A stretch of DNA of 64,000 bases, from assembly GCF_003574735.1 (NCBI RefSeq), contig NZ_QORW01000005.1:62001-126000 (forward strand). Direction: 5' to 3'. This DNA is from Dongia deserti. Lineage in GTDB: Bacteria; Pseudomonadota; Alphaproteobacteria; Dongiales; Dongiaceae. Below, in pieces: positions 4,328-39,546 of the stretch. The notes under the pieces are model-generated. The model saw only the letters and a list, made by a program, of their open reading frames with translations, had not been told where the DNA came from and made no database searches. Each line of letters begins with the position of its first letter. Within the stretch, counting starts at the first letter, position 1. The translations under genes and the position numbers were made by a program.

Positions 4328-4659
4328 ATCTCCTTCTCGGCTGCAATCGCCGATGCAACTAACCGTCGTAACTGGACAACGGCTCGTCCGGAGCTGCGTA
4401 TCGGTGGCAAAAAAAGCTCAGTCTTTCGGGAACGAATCGCCCTCAGTAGGGTTGAGGTCCCGGAGAAGTCTGCTCAAGGCTTGCTTGGGGATGCGGGGAT
4501 CAGCCAAAAGATGTGGGATAAACGAGCTGTCGTCGCGACGGCCCGGCCGTGTTTCGCGGTGCGGAGCCAGTCGAACGGGCGCGCGCGCCGTCTCCGTCGA
4601 TCTCACTCCCGTTACAAGATCTCGTCGGTTGCAGCCCCTTTAGGATTCGGGAGCCGTCA
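4328..4659. other. Divergent intergenic region before the HAMP-array kinase
   Basis: This 332-bp region separates the minus-strand glycosyltransferase from the plus-strand kinase. The kinase frame is open from 4549, but coding there is not convincing. The only sites I can point to are a GGAAC-N16-GGTT arrangement at 4429-4453 and a short CGTCGCGACG palindrome near 4530. No clear sigma-70 promoter was found for either direction. Confidence 0.6.
4429..4453 (+). promoter_or_regulatory. Weak EcfG-like promoter candidate
   Basis: GGAAC at 4429-4433 is followed after 16 bp by GGTT at 4450-4453, one base away from the alphaproteobacterial general-stress consensus GGAAC-N16/17-CGTT. It lies about 200 bp upstream of the chosen kinase start. 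The mismatch in the -10 element and the long leader make this only a candidate. Confidence 0.25.
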
Positions 4660-10974
<6,315 letters not shown>

Positions 10975-13881: not shown

Positions 13882-15306
13882 TCAGTTCCCCATTGCCAGG
13901 GCGGGATCGATCTTCAGAACCAGGCAGTCGGTGCGCTTTGCCTGGAGGTTGCGGCAGGCGATCTGGGCATCGCTCTTGCTGAGGCCGGCGACCCGGGCGC
14001 GATAGAGCTTGCTGCCGTTGTTCATCTTCTGAGTGTCGATGATGATGCGCGCGTCGGCCAGCAACTCGGCTTCCGACTTGGTTGCGGTCTGCGCAGCCTG
14101 CTGCGCTGCGTTGTACTTGGAATAGGCACCGACCTGGATGCCGTAATCGCCGGCGGGCTTCCAGACCATGGTGGTGGCTTGGGAGTCGGGCGCCGCAGCG
14201 CTGGCGATGGTGACAATGTTGGATCGCGTGCCGGGCTTCAGGAGCGGCATCATCCCCTTGATGCCAGCAAGCCTGACCGCGCTATCGCTCTCGTCGATCG
14301 TCCCGCCTGTGTCGGCCTGGGCCGGCTTGATCAGGATGTTGGCGATCACGTCTTCGACCATTGATTCCGCCGTCGTGTCCGCCGGGGCAGGCGCGGCTGC
14401 CTTGACATGGCCACCGAGCGGCGGCGCCTTCGCGGCCAGCAGCGTGCCAGTGCCGCGTGCCGTCTTGAAGCCGTCGGTCAGAAGGTCGGCAACCTGTCGG
14501 TCGCGCATCGAGGGGCTGCTGCCGCCCAGCACGACCACGACGAGCCGACGGCCGTCGCGCTCGGCCGAGCTGGCGAGGTTGAAGCCGGATGCGCGGATAT
14601 AGCCGGTCTTGATGCCATCGTAGCCTTTGAAGCTCTTCAGCAGCTTGTTGTGGCCGGCATAAGTGACGCCGCGATACTTGAAGCTGGTCCGCTTGAAGTA
14701 GCCGTAATATTGCGGGAAGTCGCGGATGAGGGCGACCGAAAGGGTCGCCATGTCACGCGCTGTCGTCCGCTGATTCGAATCCGGCAGGCCGTTGGCGTTG
14801 CGGAAAGTGGTCCGTGACATGCCCAACGACTTGGCCCTGTTCGTCATCAGCTTGGCGAAGCCGGACTCCGTGCCACCCAGATGCTCGGCGACCGCGGTCG
14901 CAACATCGTTTGCCGAGCGCACGACCAATGCGAGGACCGCGGTCTCGACCGAGATGCGATCGCCGCCGCGCACATTCAGATTGGTGGCCGCTTGGCTGGC
15001 CGCGTATTTCGAGAAGGTGATGGTGTCAGTCAGCTTGACGCGACCGTCCTGCATCGCCTCGAACAGCAGGTACAGCGTCATCATCTTGGTCAGAGAGGCG
15101 GGGTAGGTCGATGTATCCGCGTTGGAAGCCTGCAAGATCTGGCCAGTGGCGACGTCGACCACGATGTTGGCCTGCACCGGGCGGGCTTCAGCAGACGTTG
15201 TCCGCCCCAAAATCACCAGCACCACCAGCGCGAGGGCAAACGCAACCGTGATCCGGAACTGGGACAAACTGCCGCGTCTTGTCCTGACCGCGATTTGGGA
15301 CGTCAT
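13882..15306 (-). CDS. D-alanyl-D-alanine carboxypeptidase with C-terminal SPOR domain
   Basis: A 474-residue penicillin-binding protein of the S11 family (DacF/PBP5-6 type) that trims terminal D-Ala from peptidoglycan pentapeptides in the periplasm. A signal/anchor helix follows a basic N-terminus (residues 18-36). Active-site motifs are PASLTKM (S-x-x-K), SAND (S-x-N) and KTGYIRASG (K-T-G). The C-terminal 75 residues (YGIQVGAYSKYNAAQQAA...) form a SPOR domain, which binds denuded septal glycan, so action at the division site is likely. ATG 15306 with GAGGGGAAG upstream is preferred to the GTG at 15312. Confidence 0.92.
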   Translation of the reverse strand: MTSQIAVRTRRGSLSQFRITVAFALALVVLVILGRTTSAEARPVQANIVVDVATGQILQASNADTSTYPASLTKMMTLYLLFEAMQDGRVKLTDTITFSKYAASQAATNLNVRGGDRISVETAVLALVVRSANDVATAVAEHLGGTESGFAKLMTNRAKSLGMSRTTFRNANGLPDSNQRTTARDMATLSVALIRDFPQYYGYFKRTSFKYRGVTYAGHNKLLKSFKGYDGIKTGYIRASGFNLASSAERDGRRLVVVVLGGSSPSMRDRQVADLLTDGFKTARGTGTLLAAKAPPLGGHVKAAAPAPADTTAESMVEDVIANILIKPAQADTGGTIDESDSAVRLAGIKGMMPLLKPGTRSNIVTIASAAAPDSQATTMVWKPAGDYGIQVGAYSKYNAAQQAAQTATKSEAELLADARIIIDTQKMNNGSKLYRARVAGLSKSDAQIACRNLQAKRTDCLVLKIDPALAMGN

Positions 15307-31200: not shown

Positions 31201-32169
31201 CTACGTCTTCGCCAGCTTGAGCTGTGCGCGCCGGCGGACGATCTGCTGATCGGCCAGTACGCCGATCAGGATCACCCCGCCGATCACCGCGAAATTGAGC
31301 GACGAAGGAATACCAAGCAGGTTGACCAGGTTCTGCAGCACTTGCAGCAGTATGGCGCCGAGCACGATGCCGAGCACCGAGCCTTCGCCGCCACGCAGCG
31401 AACAGCCGCCGAGCACCGCGGCCGCGATCGCGTAGAGCTCGTAGAAACTGCCGTGGGAAGCCGGCGAGATCGAGCGGGTATACATGGCGAGATAGATCGC
31501 CGACAGGCCGCACAAGGCGCCGGAGATCACGTAAGCCGCCGTGATGATGCGATGGGTACGGATGCCAGAATAGCGCGCCGCTTCCTCATTCTTGCCGACC
31601 GCAAACAGATACCGTCCGAACACCGACTTGTGCAGGACGATTCCCATGACAAGGGCGAGCAGGATGAAGACGATGAAGCTGTGCGGGATGAGGCCGAAGG
31701 CGCGACCCGTGGTCAGCCACTCCAGCGCTGGAAAATTCATGCCGAAGGCGAAGCCGGCCGTTCCGTCATTAGTGTAATAGCGGGCGATGCCGCGGTAGAT
31801 CAGCAGGCCGCACAGAGTCACGACGAAAGGCTGCAGCCGCATTTCGGTGACCAGATAGCCATGCAGCCAGCCAAGCGCAGTGCCGGCCAGAACCATCAGC
31901 AGCATGGCCAACGGCCAGTTCATCTCGTAATTGACCAGGAGGTCGATGAAGATCACGCCGAGCAGCGCAAACATGGAGCCGACCGACAGCTCAATGCCGC
32001 CGGTAATGATCACGAAACCCATGCCGATGGAGAACATGCCGAACAAACCGATCAGGTTGGCTGTGTTCGCGATGTTGATGGGCGAGAGAAAGCGAGGATT
32101 GATGATGGCCACGATCGTTCCCACCACCAGGATGAGGACGAGAAGCGATAGGTCCTTCTTGAACATCAT
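31201..32169 (-). CDS. Ribose-type sugar ABC transporter permease (RbsC family), system 1
   Basis: A 322-residue BPD_transp_2 family permease with about ten hydrophobic segments. MGMGFVIITGGIELSVGSMFAL and AIAAAVLGGCSLRGGEGSVLGIVLGA are family hallmarks. It starts 5 nt after the ATPase gene 32175-33734 and is the last gene of an SBP-ATPase-permease operon that imports a pentose, hexose or polyol. Exact ligand unknown. Confidence 0.92.
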   Translation of the reverse strand: MMFKKDLSLLVLILVVGTIVAIINPRFLSPINIANTANLIGLFGMFSIGMGFVIITGGIELSVGSMFALLGVIFIDLLVNYEMNWPLAMLLMVLAGTALGWLHGYLVTEMRLQPFVVTLCGLLIYRGIARYYTNDGTAGFAFGMNFPALEWLTTGRAFGLIPHSFIVFILLALVMGIVLHKSVFGRYLFAVGKNEEAARYSGIRTHRIITAAYVISGALCGLSAIYLAMYTRSISPASHGSFYELYAIAAAVLGGCSLRGGEGSVLGIVLGAILLQVLQNLVNLLGIPSSLNFAVIGGVILIGVLADQQIVRRRAQLKLAKT

Positions 32170-32174
32170 CGGAT

Positions 32175-33734
32175 TTATCCTCCCATCGCCAGTTTCATCG
32201 CCGGCGGCTCCCGCAGGCTCTTGCCGATGGCGAGCTGCAGGACGCGATCCTCACTGAACTCGTTGCGCTCCAGGATGCCGCTGATGCGCCCCTCATGCAT
32301 GACGGCGATCCGGTCGCTGACCCCGATCACCTCTTCCATGTCGCTGGAGATCATCAGGATCGCCACGCCGGCATCGGCAAGGGCGCGCATCAGCTCGTAG
32401 ATCTCGCCCTTCGCGCCGACATCGATGCCGCGCGTCGGCTCGTCGAAGATGATGACCTTCGGGCTCATGCTGAGCCACTTGGCGAGGACGACCTTCTGCT
32501 GGTTGCCGCCGGAGAGCGAAGAGGTCCGGGTAGCGACCGACGGCACCTTGATCTTGAGCTTGGCCTTCTGCTGCTCGGCATTGCGGGTTTCGGCATTGTC
32601 CTGCACGAGAGAAGCCCGGGCATAGGCCGGCAGATTCGCCAGCGAGATGTTCTCCGCGACGGAGAAATCCAGCACCAGGCCGCTCTGCTTGCGGTCCTCG
32701 GGGATGAGATAGAGGCCGCGGTGGATGGCGTTGCGCGGTTCGGCGATCTCCAGAACCTGGCCGAGTAGCTTGATCTGGCCGCCCAGGCGCCGGTCGATGC
32801 CGAAAATCGCCCGGGCCAGCTCCGTGCGTCCGGAGCCGACCAGGCCGGCCAGCCCCAGGATCTCACCTCCGCGCAAGCCAAGCGTGACCGACTGCGATGG
32901 AAAGGCGGCGGTGCGGACCTCGGCAAGATCGAGCGCGACTTCCCGCGGCGGCGCGGCGGGCGGGATGTAGAGCGACTTCAGATCGCGCCCGATCATCAGG
33001 CGGATCATCGCATCGTGCTGGATCTGCGCGCGATCGAGCCGGCCGACCACCTTGCCGTCGCGCAGCACGATGACGCGATCGGCGCAGCGCTCCACCTCCT
33101 GCAGGCGGTGCGAAATGAAAATGACGCTCACATGGTTCTTCTTGAGGTCGGCGATCACGTCCAGCAGGCGCGCGGTCTCGCTGGCGGTCAAGCTGGAGGT
33201 CGGCTCGTCCATGATCACGAGGCGTGCGTCGAGCGACAGCGCCTTGGCGATCTCCACCAGCTGGCGCTGCGCCAGGGACAGGATTGCGACCGGTGTGGCG
33301 GGGCCGAAATCGGCGCCCAGCCGGCGCAGCAGAGGCGTCACCTTTTCGTGCAGTGCTCGCGTGTCGATCAGGTTGAGCAGCCCCCCAAAGCGCGGCTCAC
33401 GCCCGATGAAGACGTTGGCGGCAACGTCCAGATTGTCGAACAGGTTGAGCTCCTGGTGGACGAACGCGATGCCGGCCTTGGTCGCATCCTTGACGCTCAT
33501 CGCGGCGTGCTCTGCCGCGTCTATGCGGATGGTGCCCTCGCTCGGTGCCGTCACGCCGCCCAGGATCTTCATCAAGGTGGACTTGCCGGCGCCGTTCTCG
33601 CCGACCAGGCCGATGACCTCCCCCGGCGCGACCGACAGGTTGACGGCGGAGAGGGCAACGACCCCGGGATAGGTCTTGCCGATATCGATCAGGTCGAGAA
33701 ACGGCGCGGCCGAAGCCGCTTGCAATGCTGACAT
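32175..33734 (-). CDS. Ribose-type sugar ABC transporter ATPase (two-domain, RbsA/MglA family), system 1
   Basis: Two fused nucleotide-binding domains. The first has VGENGAGKSTLMKIL, LSLAQRQLVEIAKAL and MDEPTSSLT; the second has the degenerate Walker A GLVGSGRTE, LSGGNQQKVVLAKWL and FDEPTRGIDVGAK, the usual asymmetry of RbsA and MglA. I take ATG 33734 (519 residues). The frame is open to ATG 33803, which has AGGGAC upstream and is only 14 nt after the SBP gene, but the extra 23 residues look unlike the family. Confidence 0.93.
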   Translation of the reverse strand: MSALQAASAAPFLDLIDIGKTYPGVVALSAVNLSVAPGEVIGLVGENGAGKSTLMKILGGVTAPSEGTIRIDAAEHAAMSVKDATKAGIAFVHQELNLFDNLDVAANVFIGREPRFGGLLNLIDTRALHEKVTPLLRRLGADFGPATPVAILSLAQRQLVEIAKALSLDARLVIMDEPTSSLTASETARLLDVIADLKKNHVSVIFISHRLQEVERCADRVIVLRDGKVVGRLDRAQIQHDAMIRLMIGRDLKSLYIPPAAPPREVALDLAEVRTAAFPSQSVTLGLRGGEILGLAGLVGSGRTELARAIFGIDRRLGGQIKLLGQVLEIAEPRNAIHRGLYLIPEDRKQSGLVLDFSVAENISLANLPAYARASLVQDNAETRNAEQQKAKLKIKVPSVATRTSSLSGGNQQKVVLAKWLSMSPKVIIFDEPTRGIDVGAKGEIYELMRALADAGVAILMISSDMEEVIGVSDRIAVMHEGRISGILERNEFSEDRVLQLAIGKSLREPPAMKLAMGG

Positions 33735-33816
33735 GTGCCGGTCGTCGGTGCGAGGAGCGATGAAGCCGGCGCGATCATAGCACCGCGCCGGCTCCCCCTC
33801 CATCGGTCCGTCCCTA

Positions 33817-34770
33817 TCAGCTTCGGCCCTGCTGCTTCTTCAGCTCTTCCCAGAATGCATCGACATTGGACTGGTCGATGATCTTGGTGGGCACGATGAT
33901 CAGCTTGTTCTCTGGAATGAAGCTCTTGTCGCCTTCCAGGTACTTGGCCATCATCTTCATGCCTTCATAGCCCCACTGATAGGGCTGCTGCACCACCGTG
34001 CCGACGATGGTGCCTTCCTTGACGCCGCCCAGGGTCACCGGGTCCTCGTCAAAGGCGATGATCTTGATCTTGCCGAGCTGGCCGGAATTCTTCACCACCT
34101 CGTAGATCCGCGGCGTGTTGTAGGAGTAGAGCCCGGCCAGGCAGTCGATATCGGGATTGGCGGCCAAGGCGTCCTCGACATTGCGCTTGGCGCGCGCCAT
34201 GTCGATGTCGTCCTCGCGGATATCCAGGATCTCGATCTTGGTGCCGCCGATGGCCTCCTTGATGCCTTCGACGCGCTCGCGGGCGTTGTCGTTGGCCAGG
34301 ATGCCGACGAACATGATGCACTTGCCGCCGTCCGGCAGCGCCTTCTTCATCAGTTCGCCCGCCTGCACGCCGGCATCGATGTTGGAGCTGCCGATATAGG
34401 CGATGCGGTTGGAATCGGGCGCGTCGCTGTCGGTGGTGAACAAGGCCGCCTGGCTGGCAATGCGATTGAGCGCCTCCGTCGAGTGCTTCGGATCGTCCGG
34501 GCTGACCATGATGCCGGCGACACCCGCCGCCACCAAGTCATCCATCAGACGCTGCTGCACCGCGGCAGATGCGGTTTCTGGATACTTGAACACCAGTTCG
34601 TAGTTGGGCAGTTCCTCTTGCGCCTTCGCAACGCCGGCTTCCGCCGCCTTCCAGAAGTCGGATGCTCCGTTGACCACAAAGGCCAAGGTCTTCTTGTCGG
34701 CAGCCTCAGCGGCAATGCCGATGCTCATCGCCAGCGCCACGGCGGCACCAGCCAGAAAAAGTCGCTTCAT
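33817..34770 (-). CDS. Ribose-type periplasmic sugar-binding protein, system 1
   Basis: A 317-residue type-1 periplasmic binding protein. The signal peptide is MKRLFLAGAAVALAMSIG followed by AEAAD. The mature protein has LAFVVNGASDFWKAAEAGVAKA and KIKIIAFDEDPVTLGGVKEGTIVGTVVQQPYQWGY, the hinge and ligand-loop regions of ribose/sugar-binding proteins. It is the first gene of system 1, with a promoter and palindrome upstream at 34845-34892. Ligand unknown. Confidence 0.92.
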   Translation of the reverse strand: MKRLFLAGAAVALAMSIGIAAEAADKKTLAFVVNGASDFWKAAEAGVAKAQEELPNYELVFKYPETASAAVQQRLMDDLVAAGVAGIMVSPDDPKHSTEALNRIASQAALFTTDSDAPDSNRIAYIGSSNIDAGVQAGELMKKALPDGGKCIMFVGILANDNARERVEGIKEAIGGTKIEILDIREDDIDMARAKRNVEDALAANPDIDCLAGLYSYNTPRIYEVVKNSGQLGKIKIIAFDEDPVTLGGVKEGTIVGTVVQQPYQWGYEGMKMMAKYLEGDKSFIPENKLIIVPTKIIDQSNVDAFWEELKKQQGRS

Positions 34771-34844: not shown

Positions 34845-34892
34845 ATTTGTCTGACAATATCTCAATACGCGAGATAGGCGGGGGGCGTCAAC
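34845..34892 (-). promoter_or_regulatory. Promoter and TTGTC-T-GACAA operator of sugar system 1
   Basis: Read on the minus strand, TTGACG (34892-34887) and TATTGA (about 34868-34863) form a plausible promoter for the binding-protein gene. Just downstream is the perfect palindrome TTGTC-T-GACAA (34847-34857), and between them a second inverted repeat TATCTC-N7-GAGATA (34858-34876). The first resembles operators of FadR/FCD-type GntR regulators and resembles sites at 36881-36937. Confidence 0.5.
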
Positions 34893-34989
34893 GAAAGCAG
34901 CAATGATTACGCCAACTGCACAACCACACCTCAAAAAGATGCGTAATGCGCACGTGACAAAATGATAAAGCGCGGTCGATGCGCGAGTG

Positions 34990-35988
34990 CTATTGGCTTT
35001 GGCGCAGGTTGCGGATGCGATCGAACAGAACTGCCAGGATGATGGCGCCGCCGATGAAAGTCCCTTGCCAGAAGGCGTTGATGCCCAGGAGGCCCAGGCT
35101 GTTCCGAATGACCTCGATCAGGGCCGCACCCACGAGAGCGCCGAAGGCGGTGCCAACGCCGCCGGCGAGATTGGCGCCGCCGATGACCGCGGCGGCGATC
35201 ACCTGCAACTCCATGCCGGCACCGATGTTGGTCGTGACTGCGCCAAGCCAGCCGGTTTGGATGATGCCCGCGATGCCCGCCGACAAGGCCGAGATGACGT
35301 AGACCGCAACCTTGATCGGGCGGACGGGGACACCGGTCAGGGTCGCCGCGTGCTCATTGCCGCCGATGGCAAAGACATGGCGGCCGAACCTGGTCCAGCG
35401 CAGAACGAAACCGGTCAGCAGCGCCAGCGCAATCATGTAAAGGACCGGGTTGGCGATGCCGAACAGCCACGCGCCACCACCCAGCGCGAGCAGCAAGTCG
35501 TGGTCCGGCCCGAACTGGAAAACCACGGTGTTGTTCGAGGCAACCATCGCCAGGCTGCGCGCGAGGGAGAGCATGCCGAGCGTCACGACAAAAGGTGGAA
35601 ATCCGAGATAGGCTATGAGGATCCCGTTGAACAGGCCGACGATAATGGCCGTGCCGAGCGAGGCCAGAATGCCGATCTCGAGGCTGTAGCCGGCATTCAT
35701 GGTGACGGCGAGCACCATGCTGCACAGACATAGGACGGATCCAACCGATAAATCGATGCCGCCGGTGATGATCACCAATGTCATGCCAAGGGCAATAATG
35801 GCGACGAACGTGACGTTCCGTGTGATGTTGTAGAGGTTTTTGCTGGTCGCGAACGATTCCGTGGCAAAGGACAGGAAGATGCAGGCCAGAATGACGGCGA
35901 TCACGACCCAGAAGGTCTGGTTGCTGGTGATCGACGTCAGCCAGGTGTGCTGCTTCTGCTCAATCGTCTGGTCAAGGGTGGTTGTCAT
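34990..35988 (-). CDS. Sugar ABC transporter permease (RbsC/FrcC family), system 2
   Basis: A 332-residue BPD_transp_2 permease with about ten hydrophobic segments. LGMTLVIITGGIDLSVGSVLCLCS and VIAAAVIGGANLAGGVGTAFGALVGAAL match the family. It starts 3 nt after the single-domain ATPase gene upstream. Its binding protein is most likely the one encoded across the divergent promoter at 38035-39024, not the adjacent 33817-34770 gene, because that gene has its own promoter. Confidence 0.9.
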   Translation of the reverse strand: MTTTLDQTIEQKQHTWLTSITSNQTFWVVIAVILACIFLSFATESFATSKNLYNITRNVTFVAIIALGMTLVIITGGIDLSVGSVLCLCSMVLAVTMNAGYSLEIGILASLGTAIIVGLFNGILIAYLGFPPFVVTLGMLSLARSLAMVASNNTVVFQFGPDHDLLLALGGGAWLFGIANPVLYMIALALLTGFVLRWTRFGRHVFAIGGNEHAATLTGVPVRPIKVAVYVISALSAGIAGIIQTGWLGAVTTNIGAGMELQVIAAAVIGGANLAGGVGTAFGALVGAALIEVIRNSLGLLGINAFWQGTFIGGAIILAVLFDRIRNLRQSQ

Positions 35989-35991
35989 GGG

Positions 35992-36732
35992 TTATGCCCG
36001 CTCAATTGCGCCGGTGATGAGGCCGGTGACTTCCTCGGGTGAGCTGTCTGCGATCTTCTTGTCGGCGACCTTGCGCCCGCGGCGCATGACGATGACGCGG
36101 TCTGCGACCGAGAAAACGTCCGGCATGCGGTGGCTGATGAGCACAACCGCGAGCCCTTGATCGCGCAGGTGACGGATGAGGTTCAGCACCTCGGCCACCT
36201 GGCGGACGGAGATCGCGGCCGTTGGCTCGTCCATCAACACGATCTTGGCCTTGGACAGCATGGTGCGGGCAATGGCGACCGCCTGGCGCTGGCCGCCCGA
36301 CATCTGCTTGACCAGATCGCGCGGCCGCGTCTCGGACTTGAGTTCTGCAAAGATCTGGCCGGCGCGCTTGTACATCGAGGCATAGTCGAGGATTCTGAAG
36401 GGCCCGACGCCGACGCGCAGCTCGCGCCCCAGAAATACGTTCGCCGCCGCCGTCAGGTTGTCGCACAGTGCCAGATCCTGGTGGACGATCTCGATCCCAT
36501 GCCGCCGCGCATCCACCGGGCGATGCATGACAAGCTCGGTTCCTTCCAACCGCATCGCGCCGTGACTGGGCCGGAAATTGCCGGCAATCATCTTGACCAG
36601 GGTCGACTTGCCGGCGCCATTGTCCCCCATGAGACCCGTCACTTCGCCGGCTTCGAGCGATAGCGACACGTCGTTCACGGCCTGGATCGCGCCGAAATGT
36701 TTCGAGATACTAGCGAGTTCGAGAAGTGCCAC
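35992..36732 (-). CDS. Single-domain sugar ABC ATPase (FrcA-like), system 2
   Basis: A 246-residue ATPase with one nucleotide-binding domain: MGDNGAGKSTLVKMIAG, MSGGQRQAVAIARTML, IVLMDEPTAAIS and VVLISHRMPDV. Most ribose-type systems use a fused double-domain ATPase; the FrcBCA fructose importer of rhizobia uses a single-domain form like this one. The gene is first of its minus-strand pair and shares a divergent control region with the epimerase gene. Confidence 0.92.
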   Translation of the reverse strand: MALLELASISKHFGAIQAVNDVSLSLEAGEVTGLMGDNGAGKSTLVKMIAGNFRPSHGAMRLEGTELVMHRPVDARRHGIEIVHQDLALCDNLTAAANVFLGRELRVGVGPFRILDYASMYKRAGQIFAELKSETRPRDLVKQMSGGQRQAVAIARTMLSKAKIVLMDEPTAAISVRQVAEVLNLIRHLRDQGLAVVLISHRMPDVFSVADRVIVMRRGRKVADKKIADSSPEEVTGLITGAIERA

Positions 36733-36985
36733 CCGTCCTGCCTCCCGTTCCGCGTCGTTCGTTGTTGCCGGTCTCGCCTGAACCGTGAACGCGGTTTTTG
36801 CTGCGATGCACTCTTGCCCATCCCTGACGGGCGGAAAGCTGCGGTGAATTTATGCAAACACCATTCGGGGCGTCAATCTATTGTCTGAAGAATCAAGCCC
36901 CTCAAAGACCTCAACGATCCATTTTGTAGGACAAAATCGTTGACGCCTGCATCGCTCCGATATTAGCTAGCCGCGGGAGGGGCAG
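36733..36985. promoter_or_regulatory. Divergent control region: two TTGACG promoters and two operator-like palindromes
   Basis: Minus direction (ATPase): TTGACG at 36876-36871, then a 17-bp spacer and ATAAAT. Plus direction (epimerase): TTGACG at 36940-36945 and TATTAG at 36961-36966. Site C, ATTTTGT-AGG-ACAAAAT (36921-36937), is a perfect palindrome next to the plus -35; site B, TTGTCTGAAGAA (36881-36892), is an imperfect one next to the minus -35. Both resemble TTGTC-T-GACAA at 34847-34857. All three -35 boxes read TTGACG followed by CC. Confidence 0.55.
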
Positions 36986-37966
36986 ATGCTGATCCTCGTT
37001 ACCGGCGCGACGGGAAAGGTTGGGCGGAACCTGATAGCTCGCCTGCTCGAGGACCCGCGATTCTCCGCGGCTCGCATTCGTGCGCTCTGTCACACCCGCA
37101 CCTGGGGAGCGCATGAACGCGTCGAAATTGCGCGCGGCACGATCGCCGACCGCGCCGTCGTCAATGACGCGTTGGCCGGCGTCACGCACGTCGTGCACCT
37201 CGCCACCTGCAAGGAAACGCCCCTCGACGTCATGGACGTTACGGTAAAGGGCCTGTTCTGGTTGCTTGAGGGGTTTCGCCTCAGCGCGGCGGCCCGGCAG
37301 TTCATCCTGATTGGCGGCGATGCGGGCGTCGGCCACTTCTACTATCGGCATGACGGACCAATCACCGAGGACGCGCCGCACATGGCCTATCCCGGTTGCT
37401 ATGCGCTGTCCAAAGTTCTCGAAGAAGTGATGCTGGAACAGTTCGGAATCCAGTACGGTCTCAACGGATGCTGCCTGCGCGCGCCTTGGATCATGGAGAA
37501 GGATGACTTCAAATACTCGTTGTCATTCGGCGACGACGTGTTCGGCGGGCCCGACTGGAAGACAATGGTGCCGGCGGAGGACGCAAGACGCTATGCCAAG
37601 GACGGTACCGTTCCGCTCTTGAGCGATGCCGACGGACGACCTCTCAAGAGGAATTTCGTTCATGTCGACGATCTGGTCTCCGCCATCGTGGCGGCGATCG
37701 ACAATCCGCGCGCGGAGCGGCAGCTTTTCAATGTATGCATGGACCGGCCGGTCGATTACGGCGAAGTGGCCGCGTATCTGCGTCGCACCCGCGGGCTCAA
37801 CTCCGTCGAGATCCCGAGCCGGTACCACTCGAACTGGATGGACAACAGCAAGGCGAAGTACCTGCTCGGTTGGAAGCCGGATTATGACTTGGAGATGCTG
37901 ATCGACTCGGCCTGGACCTACCAGCGTTCGAAGGACGACCCGCGTAGGGTCTGGTATCCGGGTTGA
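36986..37966 (+). CDS. NAD(P)-dependent sugar epimerase/dehydratase family protein
   Basis: A 326-residue extended short-chain dehydrogenase. The N-terminal VTGATGKVGRNLIARLL is the Rossmann nucleotide loop (G-x-x-G-x-x-G), and YALSKVLEEVML holds the catalytic Tyr and Lys (Y-x-x-x-K). ATG 36986 has GGGAGG upstream. It lies between the two arms of sugar system 2 and shares its promoter region, so it probably acts on the imported sugar or a derivative, as an epimerase or lactone-forming dehydrogenase. The exact reaction is not determined. Confidence 0.82.
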   Translation: MLILVTGATGKVGRNLIARLLEDPRFSAARIRALCHTRTWGAHERVEIARGTIADRAVVNDALAGVTHVVHLATCKETPLDVMDVTVKGLFWLLEGFRLSAAARQFILIGGDAGVGHFYYRHDGPITEDAPHMAYPGCYALSKVLEEVMLEQFGIQYGLNGCCLRAPWIMEKDDFKYSLSFGDDVFGGPDWKTMVPAEDARRYAKDGTVPLLSDADGRPLKRNFVHVDDLVSAIVAAIDNPRAERQLFNVCMDRPVDYGEVAAYLRRTRGLNSVEIPSRYHSNWMDNSKAKYLLGWKPDYDLEMLIDSAWTYQRSKDDPRRVWYPG

Positions 37967-38034: not shown

Positions 38035-39024
38035 ATGAAAAAGCTATCCTTACTCATAGCCGCAGCGGCTCTGGCGTTGAGCGCCGGACCGGCGCTGGCC
38101 AAGAAGCAGCTCGTCATCGTGGTGAAGGGCCTCGACAATCCGTTCTTCGAGGCAATCAACCAAGGCTGCCAGAAATGGAACAAGGAGAACGCAAACTCCG
38201 AATACGAGTGCTTCTATACCGGCCCAGCATCGACCTCTGACGAGGCGGGCGAGGCGCAGATCGTCCAAGATATGCTCGGCAAGGCGACGACGGCGGCAAT
38301 TGCCATTTCGCCCTCCAATGCCAAGCTGATCGCGCAGACCATCAAGACCGCCAATCCGTCGGTGCCGGTAATGACGCTCGATGCTGACCTCGCGAAGGAG
38401 GATTCGGCGCTGCGTCTGACATATCTCGGCACCGACAACTACCTGATGGGCTATCGCATCGGCGAATACATCAAGAAGCACAAGCCGAATGGCGGAACCG
38501 TCTGCACGATCCAGGGCAATCCTGGTGCAGACAACATCCTGCGTCGTGCGCAAGGCACTCGTGACGCGCTCAGCGGCCAGCAAGGGCTGCCGGCGCTGAA
38601 GGGCGAAGGCGGATGGACGGAAGTGGCAGGTTGCCCGGTCTTCACCAACGACGATGGCGCCAAGGGCGTACAAGCGATGACCGACATTCTGGCCGCCAAT
38701 CCGAAACTCGACGCCTTCGCGGTCGAAGGTGGCTGGCCGCTGTTCGGCGCACCGCAGCCGTACCGCGACCTGTTCAAGCCGTACGCGGATCGCATCGCCA
38801 GCGGCGATTTCGTCATCTCCGCCGCGGACACGATCGGTGACGAAGTCGCGATCGCCCGCGAAGGTCTGGTGACAGCCCTGGTCGGCCAACGGCCGTTCGA
38901 AATGGGCTACAAGGCGCCATCGGTCATGATCGATCTGATCGAAGGCAAGAAGGTAGAAGACCCGGTATTCACGGGCCTCGACGAATGCACCAAGGACACG
39001 GTCGATACCTGCATTCAGAAGTAA
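38035..39024 (+). CDS. Periplasmic sugar-binding protein (type 1 fold), system 2
   Basis: A 329-residue binding protein with a clear signal peptide ending in GPALA-K. VVKGLDNPFFEAINQGCQKWN, AIAISPSNAKLIAQTIK and EGLVTALVGQRPFEMGY are typical of ribose/fructose/galactose-binding proteins. Two pairs of Cys may form disulfides. GGGAGG sits just before the ATG. The gene follows the epimerase by 68 bp, with a small hairpin GGGCAC-AGC-GTGCCC (37977-37991) in between, and ends in a strong terminator. It likely serves the permease and ATPase at 34990-36732. Confidence 0.92.
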   Translation: MKKLSLLIAAAALALSAGPALAKKQLVIVVKGLDNPFFEAINQGCQKWNKENANSEYECFYTGPASTSDEAGEAQIVQDMLGKATTAAIAISPSNAKLIAQTIKTANPSVPVMTLDADLAKEDSALRLTYLGTDNYLMGYRIGEYIKKHKPNGGTVCTIQGNPGADNILRRAQGTRDALSGQQGLPALKGEGGWTEVAGCPVFTNDDGAKGVQAMTDILAANPKLDAFAVEGGWPLFGAPQPYRDLFKPYADRIASGDFVISAADTIGDEVAIAREGLVTALVGQRPFEMGYKAPSVMIDLIEGKKVEDPVFTGLDECTKDTVDTCIQK

Positions 39025-39046: not shown

Positions 39047-39077
39047 GGGGCGCCTGGAAACAGGCGCCCCTTTTTTT
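39047..39077 (+). terminator. Rho-independent terminator after the sugar-binding protein gene
   Basis: GGGGCGCCTG (39047-39056), loop GAAA, CAGGCGCCCC (39061-39070), then seven T residues. The 10-bp stem is perfect, and the stop codon is 23 bp upstream. Confidence 0.95.
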
Positions 39078-39300
39078 GCTTCAAACAATTGGATGCGATG
39101 TTGTCCGCGTGGCGCACGGTCTTGCTCGCATGCGATTCCAGAGCGCGACCGCTCTCGACATGCTTCACCTCGAAAGAATGAGCGCGAATCCATGTGGTTG
39201 GTCGGCGAAAGGCTACTGCCAATTCTTGTCACTGGGCTGCGGTAGAACTCAACACGTGCAAGGAAGTGAGAGAACAGCGACAGGTTTTAGGGAGTCGGTC

Positions 39301-39546
39301 ATGTCACAAATGATTTCACGCAGATCAGATTGCTTCCAGTTGCAGGCGCAGAGCGAAGCTTCGCTTGGCTGGACCGGTGATTTCTTGTTGGCATTTCCGC
39401 GCGCACTGGTGCGCACACTGCGGCGCGCCTGGACGAGGCATGCCGACGAAAAGCTGCTGCAGGAACTGAGCGATCATCAACTACGCGACATTGGAATCCG
39501 GCGGGAGCACATCCCGCACATTGTCCGCAATGGATGGGATATTTGA
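39301..39546 (+). CDS. DUF1127 family small protein
   Basis: An 81-residue protein. The last 35 residues, ending LSDHQLRDIGIRREHIPHIV, match the DUF1127 motif (L-x-D-x-x-L-x-D-I-G-I-x-R). Small DUF1127 proteins of alphaproteobacteria act in RNA turnover and metabolic adjustment, but this one is longer, with an N-terminal head of about 40 residues. ATG 39301 follows GGGAG by 8 nt; the frame is open further upstream without a good start. The region before it (39078-39300) holds a short AGAGCG-CGAC-CGCTCT hairpin at 39140-39155. Confidence 0.8.
   Translation: MSQMISRRSDCFQLQAQSEASLGWTGDFLLAFPRALVRTLRRAWTRHADEKLLQELSDHQLRDIGIRREHIPHIVRNGWDI

Follow-up and report, generated by a model that had tools for sequence, protein, structure and literature searches.

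Three related inverted repeats as putative FadR-type GntR operators shared by two sugar importers and an epimerase gene in Dongia deserti

What could join the control of two sugar importers and an epimerase that have no regulator gene near them? The question is raised by a 64,000-nucleotide stretch of the Dongia deserti genome (G000:C44:62001-126000, hereafter the window), in which a sequence-only reading had picked out related inverted repeats beside three promoters. We propose that these repeats are operators of a GntR regulator of the FadR (FCD) subfamily, encoded elsewhere, most likely by the gene that we call C1b, and that this regulator would control both importers and the epimerase jointly. 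Judged from sequence, this reading has a probability of roughly 0.7, and the three promoters would very probably switch together.

On the minus strand, the unit perm1-atp1-sbp1 starts at 34770 and encodes importer 1: a CUT2-type permease (perm1, 31201-32169, PF02653), a two-domain, AraG/XylG-like sugar ATPase (atp1, 32175-33803, PF00005 twice) and a periplasmic sugar-binding protein (sbp1, 33817-34770, PF13407) that is 88-92% identical to its counterparts in three congeners. The unit perm2-atp2, also on the minus strand, starts at 36732 and encodes the permease (perm2, 34990-35988, PF02653) and the single-domain, 246-aa ATPase (atp2, 35992-36732, PF00005) of importer 2. Its periplasmic binding protein (sbp2, 38035-39024, PF13407) is encoded on the plus strand after epim (36986-37966, plus, PF01370), the gene of an NAD-dependent epimerase/dehydratase-family (extended SDR) enzyme. 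Both importers are CUT2 by Pfam, each with a BPD_transp_2 permease, an ABC_tran ATPase and a Peripla_BP_4 binding protein. Their sugars cannot be named, because no NCBIfam equivalog reaches its cut-off: the closest models for perm1 are ribose and multiple-monosaccharide permeases, with scores below the equivalog cut-offs. Structure homologues of the binding proteins are of ribose and glucose type only, at low similarity. As had been read from the sequence, the window holds no regulator gene of the FCD GntR or LacI type; the 30 FCD genes of the genome and its LacI-like hits all lie outside it. A small DUF1127-containing ORF (39076-39546) lies 3' of sbp2.

The three repeats lie where they had been reported, as do the TTGACG elements at 34886-34891 (minus), 36871-36876 (minus) and 36940-36945 (plus). 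Putative operator 1, ATTTGTCTGACAAT (34845-34858, core 34847-34857), sits just 3' of the -10 of the sbp1 operon, a match near 34862-34867 called by eye only; the -35 of this operon belongs to a TTGACGC that is invariant in four species. The atp2-perm2 promoter (36848-36876, minus) combines its TTGACG with ATAAAT (36848-36853) at 17 nt, and came up in a scan as a promoter-like hit in an 18-nt spacer variant; its -35 is retained in the genus (g1), in the sister genus (g6) and in Rhizobium. Putative operator 2, the degenerate ATTGTCTGAAGAAT (36880-36893), is found just 5' of that -35. Putative operator 3, ATTTTGTAGGACAAAAT (36921-36937, core 36924-36934), lies 5 nt 5' of the -35 of the epimerase-sbp2 promoter (36940-36971, plus). 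This -35 and a TATTAGCTAGC block across the -10 region (36961-36971) are invariant in the genus, and their order is unchanged in the sister genus and Rhizobium. With transcription starts estimated from the -35 and -10 positions, the centre of operator 1 falls at about +3 relative to sbp1, that of operator 2 at about -45 relative to atp2 and that of operator 3 at about -47 relative to epim. The latter two are spaced 43 bp apart in the window and 42, 41 and 35 bp apart in the congeners.

TTGACG followed by CC had been put forward as a common -35. The TTGACG is indeed retained, but the CC is not retained in relatives, and we rejected the octamer TTGACGCC as a common element (7 in the window against 3.1 expected, CC lost in relatives). 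Two observations stand apart: the TATTAGCTAGC block is retained as ATTAGCT in Rhizobium and the sister genus, which exceeds what a -10 requires, and ATATTAGC is found again in the sister-genus sbp1/lacI intergenic region.

Could such repeats be a chance resemblance without function? By itself operator 2 is a weak match: its repeat, TTGTCTGAAGAA, has two mismatches to the strict form TTGT[A/C]N[G/T]ACAA (TTGTMNKACAA) and fits in one half only. The strict form occurs twice in the window, at 34847 and 36924 only, against 0.01 expected, and two sites were reached in 0 of 100 window shuffles. Pattern searches of the four genus members, all that are available, found it at 5, 5, 3 and 5 places genome-wide, and the reversed-pattern control at 11-20 places per genome. 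In each genome exactly two strict sites are those of the sbp1 and epimerase promoters, the only pair that recurs; copies elsewhere, among those inspected, mostly overlap probable coding frames. The exact TTGTCNGACAA has three places in the D. deserti genome, the two others overlapping GC-rich open reading frames. For the loose form TTGTNNNACAA there is no enrichment (27 places against 64 for the reversed control), and so it is the strict form, together with conservation, that carries the case. Counts, conservation and register all speak against chance, which conservation contradicts for operators 1 and 3, and we regard this explanation as hardly credible.

Within the genus the sbp1 14-mer ATTGTCAGACAAAT is invariant at 14/14 positions over four species, in an intergenic region whose ungapped columns are 45% invariant. 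The epimerase site is retained as TTGTAGGACAAAA in three species; in G001 it reads TTGTCAGACAAAA and contains TTGTCAGACAA, identical to the 11-mer of sbp1. On the atp2 side the site is degenerate and reads ATTGTCTGACCATT in G001. These data bear on a different account, in which operators 2 and 3 are GntR sites, the sbp1 palindrome is bound by another protein and the importers do not form one regulon. The promoter position of operator 1 does differ from that of operators 2 and 3, importer 1 of the sister genus lacks such a palindrome and has a LacI-family gene of its own beside it, and a conserved block at 34907-34946 may reflect a further input. Yet operators 1 and 3 of G001 are an identical 11-mer, none of the four genus members has the LacI gene, and no other copy of the strict motif recurs in the four genomes; we consider this account quite improbable. 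The conserved block itself, 5' of the sbp1 -35, spans 40 bp with inverted ends (TTACGC...GCGTAA) and contains TTACGCATC, TTTTGAGG and AGTTGGCGTAA, each invariant across the four species. It is possibly the site of another regulator.

Conservation extends into the Rhizobiales. A scan with the epimerase returned 441 relatives, and the best 80, at 77-89% identity and mostly from Rhizobium, Sinorhizobium and Ensifer, were used. The arrangement with perm2-atp2 divergent from epim-sbp2 is retained among them, and sbp2 is mostly 85-95% identical where it adjoins epim in Rhizobiales. The sequence-only reading had staked itself on conservation of the motif upstream of orthologous transporters, and the motif is kept. 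The strict palindrome is present in 68 of the 80 regions between atp2 and epim (one of the window, 79 of relatives; 0.05 in shuffles), and the bases flanking its centre covary over the 68 sites (C..G 29, A..T 24, A..G 14, C..T 1), neither these counts nor the base pairs being independent events, because the sequences are related. Such paired change is as expected for sites that a dimer would bind. Nearly all 68 sites lie 62-67 nt 5' of the epimerase ATG and 5-7 nt 5' of the -35 TTGA. Behind the atp2 -35, the half-site TTGTC recurs in register in most of the 80 relatives and becomes a full palindrome in some, for example L251 and L268.

Which family of regulator would bind here? In the survey of FadR-subfamily regulons by Suvorova et al. 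2015 (PMC4494728), the consensus is NyGTM-N0-1-KACNy, GT and AC stand 3 nt apart in most members, and double sites in divergent operons are described; the spacing is the same here, and operators 1 and 3 fit the consensus exactly, operator 2 in one half only. Moreover, an FCD GntR gene stands directly 3' of sbp2 in about 30 Rhizobiales loci that have the same operator type, so that the earlier guess of an FCD-type GntR is borne out on both counts. In the locus of R. johnstonii 3841 (L234 and others) the operator is placed as in the window between perm2-atp2 and epim-sbp2, and the GntR (PF00392 and PF07729) is encoded after sbp2; unlike the window, that locus holds the regulator gene and does not hold importer 1.

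LacI-family operators are even palindromes centred on CG; the sites here are odd, of 11 bp, and the window has no LacI relative. That the regulator belongs to the LacI, MarR or some other family, its FadR-like sites being coincidental, could appeal to the lack of a GntR gene in the window and to the LacI regulators that often govern such importers. We nevertheless think it very unlikely: the geometry of these palindromes, odd, 11 bp long and with GT and AC separated by 3 nt, is that of the FadR subfamily (PMC4494728), and FCD GntR genes adjoin sbp2 in many genomes with the same operator in front.

Among the FCD proteins compared, C1b is 56% and C1a 52% identical to the R. johnstonii GntR, the next best reaching 41%, and the three fall in one clade with support 99/99. 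C1b, a GntR gene at G000:C1:302.74-303.50 kb, is found in all four species. In its cluster, besides an importer of its own, are AraD1-like, SDR and lactonase genes and, as named by eye, those for a kinase and an aldolase; gene content points to an oxidative sugar pathway. 5' of this importer stand ATTGTCAGATAAAT in G000, with one mismatch, and ATTGTCCGATAAAT in G003, which are nearly operator 1. In the more distant G392, a C1b-type importer and an SDR share one locus with sbp2 and perm2. On the strength of its identity, its presence in four species, the site in its cluster and the G392 locus, C1b is the leading candidate and most likely encodes the regulator. Most of the C1b promoter sites are TTTATCATACAAA, and C1b may therefore prefer a sequence other than TTGTCNGACAA. 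A search for a regulator gene with the motif at its own promoter had been proposed; the promoters of the FCD genes examined in this genome hold no strict copy, a point against our reading, and the C1b cluster has the one-mismatch site ATTGTCAGATAAAT.

The same FadR-type operators might instead serve C1a (G000:C1:36.4 kb), C21 (G000:C21:25.7 kb) or several paralogues with sites in common. Palindromes are similar among the FCD regulators of this lineage, C1a is close to the Rhizobium regulator, and C21 adjoins an IlvD/Edd-type dehydratase gene, as the sister-genus regulator does. Against this, C1a did not turn up in the hits from G002 and G001, though the sites are intact in both (G001 is only 68% complete), and C21, the analogue of the sister-genus regulator, ranks second because its promoter carries a different invariant block, GATAAAACATATAATACTACAAATA. 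We judge these candidates unlikely, and C1b remains our preferred regulator. A further FCD GntR gene, in the hexuronate cluster of C49 (site TTGTCATACAG), was rejected: it has its own dehydratase/TRAP set, and its product shares only 35% identity with the Rhizobium regulator. The GATAAAACATATAATACTACAAATA block is invariant 5' of a cluster of FCD GntR, IlvD-Edd dehydratase and ABC importer genes in G000:C21 (L164), L166, L167 and L144, and the C21 cluster is a candidate for a second, distinct FCD regulon. In L281 (Aminobacter sp. AP02) a perfect palindrome, GATATTGTCTGACAATATC, surrounds TTGTCTGACAA at 13918-13936. Genes for a second epimerase-like protein and for a second FCD GntR of the same clade lie 3' of it.

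How might importer 1 have come under such an operator? In the sister genus (L037-L042, lacI-epim and sbp1-atp1-perm1) importer 1 and an epimerase gene (71-74% identical) stand together, as here, but with a LacI-family gene in place of the GntR operator, and importer 2 lies elsewhere. Importers that are separately arranged there have a common operator type here. No strict site was found at the sister-genus importer 1 promoter region, and no orthologue of its LacI gene in any of the four genus members, which leads us to reject that LacI as the regulator here. From sister-genus importer 1, which has the LacI gene and lacks the operator, it appears that operator 1 was probably gained in this genus, the only one where it is seen. 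Three of four sister-genus species have TTGTACGACAA in the atp2/sbp2 intergenic region, and in two of those inspected the gene after sbp2 encodes an FCD GntR. In the tree this GntR falls on a different branch from that of Rhizobium, which implies at least one exchange of the regulator. Being common to Rhizobiales, operator 3 is either old or may have been carried in by transfer with the locus. The direction of change that we infer thus runs from an old operator 3 to a later operator 1. A tentative and somewhat doubtful extension is regulon capture, in which importer 1 lost its LacI and gained the operator of importer 2's GntR, whose gene left the locus. If true, a single regulator belonging to an oxidative sugar pathway would control, in trans, two importers of different ancestral control. 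The comparison makes a compact example of regulatory rewiring: one and the same importer adjoins a LacI-type gene in one genus and lies behind a putative GntR operator in the next.

We infer the mechanism as a whole, including binding, the identity of the regulator in this genome, the direction of control and the effector. Dimers of a FadR-subfamily GntR would bind the three repeats and jointly control perm1-atp1-sbp1, perm2-atp2 and epim-sbp2. The regulator would act in trans here, whereas in Rhizobiales its gene adjoins sbp2, and a further operator would have arisen at the sbp1 promoter in this genus. Operator 1 overlaps the estimated sbp1 start, which would favour repression; operators 2 and 3 touch the -35 flanks of divergent promoters, where either repression or activation may occur. 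The positions suggest that repression would be lifted by a sugar or sugar acid of the pathway. Release induced by a ligand is the usual behaviour of such regulators, DgoR being an example. The regulon over 31.2-39.0 kb that had been predicted has support only in the sharing of operators.

The dgo operator of E. coli is bound by DgoR, a FadR-subfamily GntR that responds to D-galactonate; its IR1, CTAAATTGTAGTACAACAATAT, contains TTGTAGTACAA (PMC12288454). Both systems have an odd palindrome, TTGT-NNN-ACAA, overlapping a promoter of sugar-acid genes, and an FCD regulator, a predicted one in the case of the window. In contrast to dgo, there are three promoters and two importers here, no adjacent regulator gene, and centres that are mostly C-N-G or A-N-G. 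FadR-type control of sugar uptake is ordinary in itself; this instance is new. The available text of PMC4494728 does not name the operator/regulator pair of the window, and we found no literature reports on the substrate or regulation of the importer/epimerase system. What is gained is a concrete candidate operator-regulator pair for a system widespread in Rhizobium and Sinorhizobium.

Identification of the Rhizobium system with RL3840 was considered and dropped, RL3840 being described as a CUT1 binding protein. In a Mesorhizobium locus the GntR gene is followed by genes for an aldo/keto reductase and for an enzyme resembling L-fuconolactonase, which scores 185.6 bits where the cut-off is 400; on this basis L-fucose was considered as a tentative candidate for the substrate. 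Elsewhere in the window, a 2141-aa ORF (4549-10974) appears to encode a multi-HAMP hybrid histidine kinase that also has response-regulator domains, and contains a tandem array of 10.7 copies of a 276-bp unit (5165-8123).
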